64,000 bases of DNA from Maridesulfovibrio salexigens DSM 2638 (GTDB taxonomy: Bacteria > Desulfobacterota > Desulfovibrionia > Desulfovibrionales > Desulfovibrionaceae), in contig NC_012881.1 of assembly GCF_000023445.1 (NCBI RefSeq), forward strand, positions 3,215,501 to 3,279,500, read 5' to 3'. Position 1 is the first letter of the stretch. Each line of letters opens with the position of its first letter. Position numbers and translations under genes: made by a program. Positions 41,133 to 45,278 of this stretch are shown here, piece by piece. Below the pieces are notes generated by a model. The model did not search any database, was not told the DNA's origin, and was given only the letters and a program-made list of their open reading frames with translations.

Positions 41133-42743
41133 ATGACTGATAATTTACAAGAAGATGTGGCACTGCAACATTTCGTGGAACAATCTCTGGACAAACTGGA
41201 CCAGATTGAAAATGTACTCATTGAAATGGAAAAAAGTTCATCCCCTTCTGCGGCCTCTGTCGCACAGGTATACGGGATACTTGTCTCCCTCAAAGAAAGC
41301 GCATCACTGCTCGAGCTTACCAACATCAGTCGTGTTGCCGACGAGATAGGCAAAGTCCTTGATCAGATATTTAAAAATGAGATTGAACTTAGCAATGACC
41401 TGTTGAATATCATCATTGATTCGTTCGACAAACTTAATGAAATAGTCAGTAACGCCACCCTGAGTGACGATATCGATATCCGCATAATCACCCTGCCTCT
41501 TGAAATGTATTCCAAGCCCGTGACCAAAACAGAAGCAAGGGAACCGCAAAAGAAGGCAGAAACAGCTACACTTGCCCCGGAACCGGAGCCGGTCGCTGCA
41601 CCGGAACCTGAACCCGAAGTAACGGCAGCTCCCGCTGAAGAAATTAAGGAACCCGAACTTCCGGAGACCGAGATTCCGCAAGCAAAACCCAAACCCGGCA
41701 AAAAGCTGAGCTCAGCAGCTTTTCGTAAAAAATACGGAATCAAAAAAGAAATAGACCTTGCCAGCAATTCCAACCCGCTGGGAGTATCAAAGGCCGTTTC
41801 TAACTCTATAGTAAATATGGCCAACAACTGTTCCGCCTTTGAGAACGGTTCGGCTGACAGCCTTAAATTCGGCCTTGCAAAACGGCATGATGTGCCTGAA
41901 GAGTGTGTGCTCGTGGCCGGAGGAGCCGTTGAGATTCTTGATCTGGCCCTGCGTTTAACGGCTATACCGGGTGTAGACCATGTACTCAGCTATGAATACG
42001 GCATGCCGGAATACAGCAGCGTCGCAGCCTTATGCGGTGTGGAACTTTTACGCCTGCCCAGAGGCCGCAACTATTCACCGCCCTTGGACCAGCTGGTAAC
42101 GACAGCAAATGAAAACACAGCCGCAGTAATCATCACCAACCCGGACGAGCCATCCGGTTACGGACTTCCCGCTGAAGAACTTGCAACCATGTCCAACCTG
42201 CTGCCGAAGCGGACACTGCTCATTGTAGATGAAAGGTCTGTGGAATTTTCATGGCCTGAAGATGATTATTCAATGGTCAATTTTCTGGAAAAAGCACCCA
42301 ATCTTGTTATCCTGCGCAGCTTCTCGTGGTCCTTCGGGCTTAGGGGGGTGCGGCTTGGATATGCACTAATGAACAGCGAACGAGCCAGAGAGTTTGAAGA
42401 ATCCAGACTCCCTACTCCCATCAGCCCATTGAATATCGGTGCCGGGCTGGCAGCGCTCAACCACAACGAATTCTATTACTCTACCATAGCCCTGATAATC
42501 AGAGGCCGGGAACGCGTCCAAAAAGGGCTGGAAGAACTTGGTTGTACCGTATACCCCAGCCAGAGTAATTTCATCATGTTCAGTTCTCCTATTCCGGCAA
42601 AACAGCTGTGCGCAGAAATGTTAGACCATGGATTTAAATTAAGGAAACTGGATGATTTCGGACTACCGGATATGCTGACTGTTTCTATCGGCAACAATTC
42701 CCGCAATAGAATGTTTCTGGCAGCCATGAAAAACATTTTATAA
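41133..42743 (+). CDS. Fusion of a His-less Hpt-like domain and a Lys-less HisC-like aminotransferase domain
   Basis: A 536-residue protein in two parts. Residues about 8-108 align well with the CheA P1/Hpt helical bundle, but the phosphorylated His is Val51 in VSLKESASLLEL. A linker rich in Pro, Glu and Ala (about 130-190) follows. Residues about 205-536 have the fold-type-I aminotransferase pattern of HisC (LASNSNPLG, TNPDEPSG, IVDERSVEF, GLRGVRLGYA). However, the PLP lysine position is Trp399 (SFSWSFGLRG against SKAFGLAG). The PLP-contacting Asn and Tyr of NPNNPTG and DEAY are Glu339 and Ser369, and the C-terminal substrate Arg is also gone. Asp366 is kept. Both parts therefore look non-catalytic. 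It is followed 15 bases later by a lipoprotein gene and then an MCP. The role is unknown; signalling or scaffolding is inference. Confidence 0.85.
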   Translation: MTDNLQEDVALQHFVEQSLDKLDQIENVLIEMEKSSSPSAASVAQVYGILVSLKESASLLELTNISRVADEIGKVLDQIFKNEIELSNDLLNIIIDSFDKLNEIVSNATLSDDIDIRIITLPLEMYSKPVTKTEAREPQKKAETATLAPEPEPVAAPEPEPEVTAAPAEEIKEPELPETEIPQAKPKPGKKLSSAAFRKKYGIKKEIDLASNSNPLGVSKAVSNSIVNMANNCSAFENGSADSLKFGLAKRHDVPEECVLVAGGAVEILDLALRLTAIPGVDHVLSYEYGMPEYSSVAALCGVELLRLPRGRNYSPPLDQLVTTANENTAAVIITNPDEPSGYGLPAEELATMSNLLPKRTLLIVDERSVEFSWPEDDYSMVNFLEKAPNLVILRSFSWSFGLRGVRLGYALMNSERAREFEESRLPTPISPLNIGAGLAALNHNEFYYSTIALIIRGRERVQKGLEELGCTVYPSQSNFIMFSSPIPAKQLCAEMLDHGFKLRKLDDFGLPDMLTVSIGNNSRNRMFLAAMKNIL

Positions 42744-42757
42744 ACCCGGAGGATTCC

Positions 42758-43075
42758 ATGTTGAAAAAAGTTCTTCTAAGCAACATCCTGCTACTCTTTC
42801 TGGCAGGCTGCTCAGGCCATACAACCAGCATGCAGGATGTCAGCTCCTTTTGCAGATCACTAGCCACGGAAGAATTGTGTGACACTCAGGATTCCATATG
42901 TGCTAAATACTCCGAAATCACACTTGCCCCATACAAATCCGCCAAGGAATGCCGTATGAGCTGCGAAAGTGTGCGTATGAAAATGAACTCACTCCCCGAC
43001 AAGCAGGATTGCCTGCAACTGCTCCAGAGCGTAGAAGAGAAATGTAATGAGTTCTGCAACTCAAATTACGAATAA
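42758..43075 (+). CDS. Small Cys-rich lipoprotein
   Basis: A 105-residue lipoprotein. The signal peptide ends in the lipobox LAGC (Cys18), followed by Ser-Gly, so lipidation at Cys18 is expected. The mature chain carries eight further Cys, enough for several disulphides. I do not recognise the family. GGAGG lies five bases before the ATG, 15 bases after the preceding gene, so it is almost certainly cotranscribed with the Hpt-like/HisC-like gene. Confidence 0.75.
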   Translation: MLKKVLLSNILLLFLAGCSGHTTSMQDVSSFCRSLATEELCDTQDSICAKYSEITLAPYKSAKECRMSCESVRMKMNSLPDKQDCLQLLQSVEEKCNEFCNSNYE

Positions 43076-43211: not shown

Positions 43212-45278
43212 ATGCTGAAAAGGTTTACTGTCGGACAAAAAATATTCTGTAGTTTTATTGTTGTTTTCGCCCTTTTTGGGATTGTAAGCATGGAATCCAT
43301 GCTTGCACTGCAAAAATCCTCTTCCGGCTTTACCGACTACCGCTTCTTTGCCAAGGATTCAAACCTGATAGGCAGAATTCAAGCCAATATACTGCAAGGT
43401 CGAACCCACGTTAAAGATTACATTATTACCGGCGACAAAAAATCCAGCCGCAAATACTTTGAAACTGCAAAAACGGTTTTCCCCCTGCTTGAACAGGCCG
43501 AAAAGGAACTTGTATCCAACGACAGGATTAGAATAATCAAAGAGATTAAGGCTCTGCTGACAGATTATGACGCCAGCTTTGCCGAAGTGGAAAAAGCTCA
43601 ACTCTCACGAGACAATCAAGCAAACTCCATACTGGTCCCTGAAGGAGACCTTATGGAACAAAACTTCGAACGCATAATCAACAATCTCGGAAAATCTCAA
43701 AGCAATTCAGCTGCACTTTACCACTGTGCCAAAGGAGTCCGTCACCTGGTTCTCGCAAGGCTTTACACCACTAAATTTATTGAAAAAAGCCTAGATGCCC
43801 ACCAAAAAAGGGCCTTAGAAGAAATGAATTTAGTCAACGATGAACTGATTAAACTTAGCTCTATTTTAAAAGGGCAGAACCAGATCTTGCTTAATGAGAT
43901 TAAGGAAGCAAAAGAAAATTATTCCAAAAGCCTCATCGAACTTTTTTCACAAACAGCAACTCGTGACAGACTGATTAACACCGAGCTGGATGTAATCGGC
44001 CCTAAGATGGCAACGCTAATCGAACAGGCCAAATCATCAGTTATTTCAGATCAGGAAAAGCTAGGTCCCTCTCTGCAAGCCCGCAACAACAGAGCCATCA
44101 TGAACACTTGGATCTTCGGCATTATCGCCTTTGTTCTCGGAGTTGGTGCAGTTGTGATTGTAGGTCGCAACATCACCCTTCCCTTGCGCAAAGTTGTTGA
44201 AGCTGCCTACCGAATTGCCGAAGGTGATATGAGCACAGGAATCAAAGGGACCGACCGTCAGGACGAACTCGGATCACTGGCCCGTGCTTTTAACAAAATG
44301 ACCGAGTCACTTAACCAGATGGCCGAAGCCATGGAAAGGGTTGCTAACTCCGACCTTACTGTGGAAGCAAAACCCCGCTCCGAAAACGACACCATTGGTA
44401 AAGCTCTCGCGACCATGGTTGAAACCCTCAAAGGCGATAACCAGCAGATCCATGAAACCGTTCGTACTCTTTCATCTTCTTTGAGCCAGATTTCAGCTGC
44501 TTCTGCAGAATTGACAGCAAGTGCAGCGGAAACAGCAAGTGCTGTTGCTGAAACAAACGCCACAGTAGAAGAAGTAAAACAGACAGCTCACCTCTCAAAT
44601 GAGAAATCCAGACAGGTTGCAGACGTAGCCCGCAAAGCAGTTCTTACCTCTCAGCAAGGTAAGAAGGCAGCGGAAGACGCATCTTCAGGAATGAAAGATA
44701 TCCGCACCCAGATGGACACCATTGCCCAGTCCATCGTTAAACTTTCCGAACAGTCACAGCATATCGGTGACATTATTTATGTCGTGAACGATCTGGCAGA
44801 TCAGTCCAATATTCTGGCTGTGAACGCCTCGATTGAAGCATCCAAGGCCGGTGAAGAAGGACGCGGATTCACCGTGGTTGCCCGTGAAATCAGAAACCTT
44901 TCTGATCAATCCAAACAATCAGTTGCCCAGATCCAGTCAATCCTTGCCGACATCCAGAAAGCCACCAGCTCTGCGGTTATGATTACCGAGCAAGGCGGAA
45001 AGGCTGTTGAAACAGGAGCAACGCTCTCCTCTCAGACAGGGGAAGCCATTCTCAACCTGAGCACAGTAATCAATCAGTCCGCCCAGTCCTCAGCCCAGAT
45101 CGCGGCTTCAAGTCAGGAGCAGTTAGCCGGGCTTGATCAGGTGGCAGTGGCCCTAGGCTCTATCAAACAAGCCGGAGAACAGAACCTTGATAGCTCTCGC
45201 CAACTGGAAGAAGCTGTTAAAGATCTCGATCAACAGGCCCGCTCACTAAAAGAGATGATGGACAGATTCAAGCTCTAG
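43212..45278 (+). CDS. Methyl-accepting chemotaxis protein
   Basis: A 688-residue MCP. Transmembrane segment 1 is about 10-32, a helical periplasmic sensor domain runs to about 295, and transmembrane segment 2 is about 296-320. A HAMP domain (about 318-375) and a long signalling domain follow, with the hairpin tip DQSNILAVNASIEASKAGEEGRGF. The all-helical sensor of about 260 residues suggests a bimodular helical type rather than Cache or PAS. It ends RFKL without a CheR-docking pentapeptide. The ligand is unknown. The AAAGGA ribosome binding site is about 13 bases before the ATG. Terminator at 45311-45350. Confidence 0.93.
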   Translation: MLKRFTVGQKIFCSFIVVFALFGIVSMESMLALQKSSSGFTDYRFFAKDSNLIGRIQANILQGRTHVKDYIITGDKKSSRKYFETAKTVFPLLEQAEKELVSNDRIRIIKEIKALLTDYDASFAEVEKAQLSRDNQANSILVPEGDLMEQNFERIINNLGKSQSNSAALYHCAKGVRHLVLARLYTTKFIEKSLDAHQKRALEEMNLVNDELIKLSSILKGQNQILLNEIKEAKENYSKSLIELFSQTATRDRLINTELDVIGPKMATLIEQAKSSVISDQEKLGPSLQARNNRAIMNTWIFGIIAFVLGVGAVVIVGRNITLPLRKVVEAAYRIAEGDMSTGIKGTDRQDELGSLARAFNKMTESLNQMAEAMERVANSDLTVEAKPRSENDTIGKALATMVETLKGDNQQIHETVRTLSSSLSQISAASAELTASAAETASAVAETNATVEEVKQTAHLSNEKSRQVADVARKAVLTSQQGKKAAEDASSGMKDIRTQMDTIAQSIVKLSEQSQHIGDIIYVVNDLADQSNILAVNASIEASKAGEEGRGFTVVAREIRNLSDQSKQSVAQIQSILADIQKATSSAVMITEQGGKAVETGATLSSQTGEAILNLSTVINQSAQSSAQIAASSQEQLAGLDQVAVALGSIKQAGEQNLDSSRQLEEAVKDLDQQARSLKEMMDRFKL

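Follow-up and report, generated by a model that had tools for sequence, protein, structure and literature searches.

A His-less P1-like domain fused to a Lys-less HisC-like domain, encoded beside a chemoreceptor gene in Maridesulfovibrio salexigens

What role could maintain a protein built of two enzyme-like domains that both appear to lack the residue on which their chemistry depends? The question is raised by a gene in the 64,000-nucleotide stretch of Maridesulfovibrio salexigens DSM 2638 DNA analyzed here (the window; NC_012881.1, positions 3,215,501 to 3,279,500). An initial annotation had described its product as a double pseudoenzyme, a CheA-P1-like domain fused to a HisC-like domain, encoded next to a methyl-accepting chemotaxis protein (MCP). 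The gene is found once per genome in 17/17 genomes of the genus (match E ≤ 1e-80), and we compared it with its relatives and with intact members of both domain families (Table 1).

Table 1. Positions of the fusion gene, its parts and key codons, its downstream neighbors, and two related genes elsewhere.
Feature	Position	Strand	Details
Pseudo-P1/pseudo-HisC fusion	41133..42743	+	536 aa; His-less Hpt/CheA-P1-like and Lys-less HisC-like
Pseudo-P1 (Hpt-like) domain	41133..41507	+	residues 1-125
Val51 codon, phospho-histidine position	41283..41285	+	
Linker, Pro/Glu-rich	41508..41699	+	residues 126-189
Pseudo-HisC domain, fold type I aminotransferase fold without PLP lysine	41700..42740	+	residues 190-536
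Glu339 codon, position of presumed PLP-contacting Asn	42147..42149	+	
Ser369 codon, position of presumed PLP-contacting Tyr	42237..42239	+	
Trp399 codon, position of presumed Schiff-base Lys	42327..42329	+	
Putative lipoprotein, Cys-rich	42758..43075	+	105 aa; lipobox by eye; next gene after fusion in 17/17
Methyl-accepting chemotaxis protein (MCP)	43212..45278	+	688 aa; syntenic counterpart in 17/17
L055 fusion, His-less Hpt and Lys-less HisC	L055 2367-3908	-	genome G038, another genus of the family
Own-genome CheA	L058 935-3949	-	1005 aa; three Hpt-like stretches

Both halves belong to the folds that the initial annotation had assigned, and Aminotran_1_2 and Hpt are the only Pfam matches in the fusion at E ≤ 1. 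The N-terminal domain, with predicted helices at residues 2-34, 40-59, 63-80 and 88-106, has the four-helix P1 fold by profile and by structural match to CheA P1, with a PF01627 score (16.3 bits in the whole protein, 20.1 bits for the domain alone) that falls short of the Pfam gathering score of 24.6 bits. The C-terminal part matches the HisC model TIGR01141 (E 3e-59; 200.7 bits, under the curated equivalog score of 276.55 bits), is 36% identical to HisC of the same genome, and matches the HisC structure 3ffh both by sequence (E 4.2e-28) and in a Foldseek comparison that starts from a poor model of the full-length fusion (E 2.6e-16; mean pLDDT 57.8). The pocket could not be read from that model, and the Pro/Glu linker annotated between the two parts is modeled with a pLDDT below 50.

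We compared the pseudo-P1 domains with 30 Hpt domains of at least 10 bits from stretches fetched across the order, excluding repeat reads of the same genes; the cut removed two matches, the third Hpt-like stretch of the own-genome CheA (6.1 bits) and another that scored -0.7 bits. His51 is present in 30/30 Hpt rows and in none of the 17 pseudo rows, in agreement with the Val51 first noted in M. salexigens. The neighbors Arg48, Lys54, Glu73 and Arg80 are found in 30/30 Hpt rows and His70 in 29; Lys54 alone remains in the fusions, His51 and the other four being absent from all 17. The fusions have also gained an invariant Glu55 and Ser56, and position 80 is occupied by Phe or Tyr. Fourteen positions are conserved in 27 or more of the 30 Hpt rows, and six of them (Phe14, Leu22, Leu29, Glu33, Lys54 and Asp99) are kept in 17/17 pseudo rows; of the remaining eight, seven are lost throughout and Glu20 is kept in seven rows. 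Invariant residues make up 7/15 of residues 8-22, a segment of helix A, versus 23/110 elsewhere (p 0.048, for a region picked post hoc). The third CheA stretch carries Val at the His position, as placed by eye, in all six genus genomes read (its own and five of the other 16; L211-L215); searched within the full frame, this stretch matches Hpt weakly, with an i-Evalue of 0.013. His-less P1 modules therefore occur in the chemotaxis system of the genus.

The HisC part was aligned as 17 pseudo rows and 68 HisC rows, with a second fusion, L055, kept separate; identical rows had been removed earlier (89 to 86). Position 399, which we take to be that of the Schiff-base lysine, is Lys in 68/68 HisC rows and, as first read in M. 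salexigens, Trp in 17/17 pseudo rows. The annotation had also listed Glu339 and Ser369 in place of an Asn and a Tyr that presumably contact PLP. Here the losses hold up (Asn339 is gone from 17/17 and Tyr369 from 14/17, remaining in three), whereas Glu and Ser themselves are not family features: position 339 is Ile, Val, Met or Glu, and position 369 likewise shows four residues among the 17. Also lost in every pseudo row are Asp/Asn266, Tyr236, presumably contributed by the partner subunit, and Arg516, presumably the C-terminal substrate Arg, whose absence had been noticed at the outset; Ser265 is lost in 15/17 and Arg504 in 8/17 (kept in nine), and the phosphate-loop residues are gone. Asp366 and Tyr294 are retained in 17/17, Ser398 in 16/17 and Arg407 in 15/17. 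Conserved HisC positions are kept at 3/11 sites in the pocket versus 28/58 elsewhere (p 0.32), which rules against loss specific to the pocket; the erosion extends beyond it. Both enzyme-like domains lack their catalytic residue and most of the surrounding network, and none of the homologues in the genus restores either residue (His 0/17, Lys 0/17).

Sequencing error and decay are ruled out because the intact frame and the substitutions recur in 17/17 genomes. Pairwise Nei-Gojobori comparisons of the window gene with its 16 relatives gave dN/dS of 0.035-0.070 for the HisC part (8/16 pairs with defined dS), 0.019-0.126 for the P1 part (6/16) and 0.22-0.74 for the linker (8/16), which evolves fast; these ratios are rough because dS exceeds 1. 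The MCP and flgE gave 0.053-0.106 where defined, and hslU, livK and a rubrerythrin-like gene were mostly lower (0.010-0.099). From these ranges, constraint on the P1 and HisC parts is about equal to that on the MCP and flgE: purifying selection on the two domains is strong.

All 16 near-complete genus genomes (16/16) also encode a stand-alone HisC that has its Lys (in G007, 84% complete, none was found at E 1e-92), and in M. salexigens the fusion gene lies far from hisC. In a large HisC tree, subject to the caveat that long branches meet, the pseudo rows form a single clade (100/100), grouping with L055 (98/89) and outside the genus HisC clade. A recent origin by duplication of HisC within the genus would be at odds with this placement, yet a topology joining pseudo and genus HisC rows was not rejected (p-AU 0.126; 28 of 86 rows), and support for L055 with the pseudo rows is only 91/82 in a smaller tree (28 of 86 rows).

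The L055 fusion has the same architecture as those of the genus but is non-His and non-Lys through different residues: the His position holds Asp, Lys399 is replaced by Arg, 339 is Glu, and both 369 and 265 are Leu. It keeps Tyr236, Arg407, Arg504 and Arg516 in the HisC part and Arg48 and Glu73 in the P1 part, and to judge from these residues it represents a less eroded relative of the genus fusions. Against a genus-only profile its N-terminus scores 36.1 bits, which does not set it above intact Hpt domains, so the case for common descent of the two fusions is built on their shared architecture and on the HisC-part tree, where long branches call for caution. No MCP adjoins the L055 gene, which lies 120 bases upstream of a same-strand frame; by eye, this frame is a hybrid histidine kinase and the other neighbors look like QueH and a HemW-like radical SAM protein.

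Searches of 288 family genomes (E ≤ 1e-92) and 348 order genomes (E ≤ 1e-106) gave 18 full-length fusion matches only, 14 of which are rows of the search profile itself; in the order search, no other match started before profile position 143. Among 188 genomes sampled across the phylum, the own genome alone matched at E ≤ 1e-70. Weaker fusions may escape such a search, since the G038 fusion could not be told by rank from ordinary HisC until it joined the profile. With an N-terminal profile in the 348 genomes the 18 fusions ranked at the top, followed, among the matches listed, by CheA-sized frames and further Hpt proteins. Of 18 stretches retrieved after this search, 17 held an Hpt match, and the Hpt domains read there carry His. 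On plasmids, 466 records matched, none covering 80% of the query, and the viral collection gave one HisC-like locus. A DNA pattern for the TGG motif was set aside, having many chance matches outside the genus among 199 genomes and comparable counts in a reversed control.

Several loci met along the way are recorded as observations. At L189, L191-L193, L196, L197 and L204, CheA-like frames are adjoined by Hpt proteins that retain the His and carry an extra C-terminal part (by eye). In the M. salexigens genome, an 899-aa frame (L056 649-3345, minus strand) joins a CobD-like aminotransferase to a CobQ-like domain, and a 615-aa frame (L057 1906-3750, minus strand) joins a nucleotidyltransferase to an aminotransferase, the lysine being kept in both (by eye). 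On a viral contig (L205 2-2376), which may be a chimeric assembly, a repeat-rich frame is joined to HisD-like sequence and followed by a HisC-like gene (by eye). Letter-for-letter identical copies of the Trp-motif DNA pattern occur in several genomes of a single genus (g40), G055, G082, G125, G161, G180 and others.

The annotated order of pseudo gene, lipoprotein and MCP is held in 17/17 genomes, and the MCP counterpart was also recovered by a separate search in 16/17. Besides its HAMP and MCPsignal domains, the MCP shows a match to a four-helix-type sensor that stays under the cut-off. The putative lipoprotein has nine invariant Cys, the lipobox Cys included (9 of 17 sequences aligned), and no Pfam family above cut-off. 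Taking the first possible codon as gene start, the lipoprotein begins -17 to 16 bases from the pseudo-gene stop across the 17 genomes and the MCP follows after a gap of 71-163 bases, so the lipoprotein and the MCP may be transcribed separately. Searches with sigma-28 and sigma-54 patterns upstream of the fusion and of the MCP gave no match in the 17 genomes. Upstream, a rubrerythrin-like gene lies on the opposite strand in 17/17, between flgE and the fusion in the window, and hslV, hslU, TPR and flgE are found in 16/17 stretches (not seen in L070). Downstream, livK is found in 16/17 (not seen in L076).

Because both catalytic residues are lost and the same chemoreceptor gene is kept alongside in 17/17 genus genomes, the fusion is probably a non-catalytic signaling part. 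More specifically, we tentatively read it as a cytoplasmic signaling adaptor, a proposal that we hold at somewhat less than an even chance. HisC is usually dimeric, with active sites shared between subunits, and the HisC-fold part would form a dimeric core. Trp399 in the place of the PLP lysine may close the pocket to PLP or remodel it for another ligand, and flexible linkers would carry the pseudo-P1 domains. In the CheA3 P1-CheY6 complex, the regulator is contacted through helices A and B of P1 (PMC2817712); the pseudo-P1 domain, which would undergo no His phosphorylation, retains the P1 fold together with much of helix A. Acting as a decoy or tether, it would dock on a CheA kinase domain or on a receiver of the CheY type and in this way adjust the output of the neighboring MCP, on whose periplasmic side the lipoprotein would act. 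Besides the P1 fold, the only tie of this adaptor to chemotaxis is its gene neighborhood. The earlier suggestion that a metabolic fold was recruited into signaling is reasonable in view of the P1 fold, the 17/17 link to the MCP, and the position of L055 beside a hybrid histidine kinase. At the same time, L055 weighs against the adaptor reading, having no adjoining MCP and retaining several P1 and HisC residues, and so do the gap between lipoprotein and MCP and the spread of HisC-part losses beyond the pocket.

The initial annotation had also raised the idea of a sensor. For PLP or histidinol phosphate, this is not supported, given the loss of Lys399, Asn339, Asp/Asn266, Tyr236 and Arg516 in 17/17 and of Ser265 in 15/17. 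The retention of Asp366 and Tyr294 in every row means that some ligand binding is possible, and the pocket could hold a small ligand other than these two. A remodeled pocket might accordingly bind, independently of PLP, a small metabolite such as an amino acid or its phosphate, or some other compound, with a conformational change relayed through pseudo-P1 to the chemotaxis kinase. Arg407, kept in 15/17, adds to the residues that such a sensor could use. We nevertheless consider it unlikely, given that Arg516 is lost throughout, Arg504 in 8/17, and the phosphate-loop residues are gone. In MocR/GabR regulators a class I aminotransferase fold is reported to serve regulation as a sensing domain (PMC6522883), but this precedent has a GntR domain and depends on PLP, whereas the fusion lacks the PLP Lys in our sequence test and shows no GntR DNA-binding domain at its N-terminus among Pfam matches at E ≤ 1.

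A regulatory pseudo-subunit that pairs with catalytic HisC and controls histidine biosynthesis is a still weaker candidate. HisZ controls HisG as a regulatory subunit, HisC is itself a dimer with shared active sites, and a Lys-bearing partner is encoded in 16/16 near-complete genomes. Such pairing would be improbable, however, since none of the 17 fusions has the Tyr that would complete the active site of the partner, the fusion gene is distant from hisC, and the P1 domain and MCP neighborhood go unexplained. We see little prospect for a different, PLP-independent enzyme with an altered active site: a few polar pocket residues are kept and Trp399 is invariant, as it would not have to be in a dead pocket, but other pocket positions vary, with four residues each at 339 and 369. 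Equally far-fetched is a flagellar or envelope assembly factor with no tie to receptor output, for which flgE is nearby in 16/17 stretches and flgE and the MCP would be coincidental neighbors, because an opposite-strand gene separates flgE from the fusion in the window and the N-terminus carries a domain of the CheA-P1 type.

Each ingredient has been described before: pseudoenzymes, pseudo-HPt proteins, and aminotransferase folds with regulatory roles. The fusion shares its fold with HisC (TIGR01141) but not the Schiff-base Lys, PLP-contacting Asn, partner Tyr or substrate Arg, and has a P1-like domain attached; it shares the four-helix fold with CheA P1/Hpt (PF01627) but not the phospho-His, its Arg/His/Glu/Arg neighbors, or a kinase domain in the same protein. 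A repurposed Caulobacter histidine kinase, which we take to be DivL, is a kinase, whereas the fusion combines Hpt with an aminotransferase fold. The resemblance is that a two-component module is reportedly reused there as a sensor, not a kinase (PMC4211667). AHP6 of Arabidopsis, an HPt whose His is replaced as in the fusion, is reported to compete with working HPts (PMC7402358), a precedent for the decoy proposed here; it is a plant cytokinin-pathway protein, whereas the domain here is joined to an aminotransferase fold. We found no report, among the open-licence papers listed by our searches, of a chemoreceptor-associated protein in which a dead phosphorelay domain is fused to a PLP-enzyme domain that is dead as well.

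Returning to the adaptor reading, its broadest form would be a class of chemosensory adaptors in which a cofactor-stripped enzyme fold brings a phosphate-proof P1 into the receptor-kinase array, occupies the kinase or CheY-type receivers and sets a single receptor's gain, perhaps controlled by a metabolite in the remodeled pocket; we regard this as rather doubtful. With simple genetics, the fusion would allow competition by His-less P1 domains to be examined as a means of regulating chemotaxis, and it bears on how a biosynthetic fold becomes a signaling scaffold.
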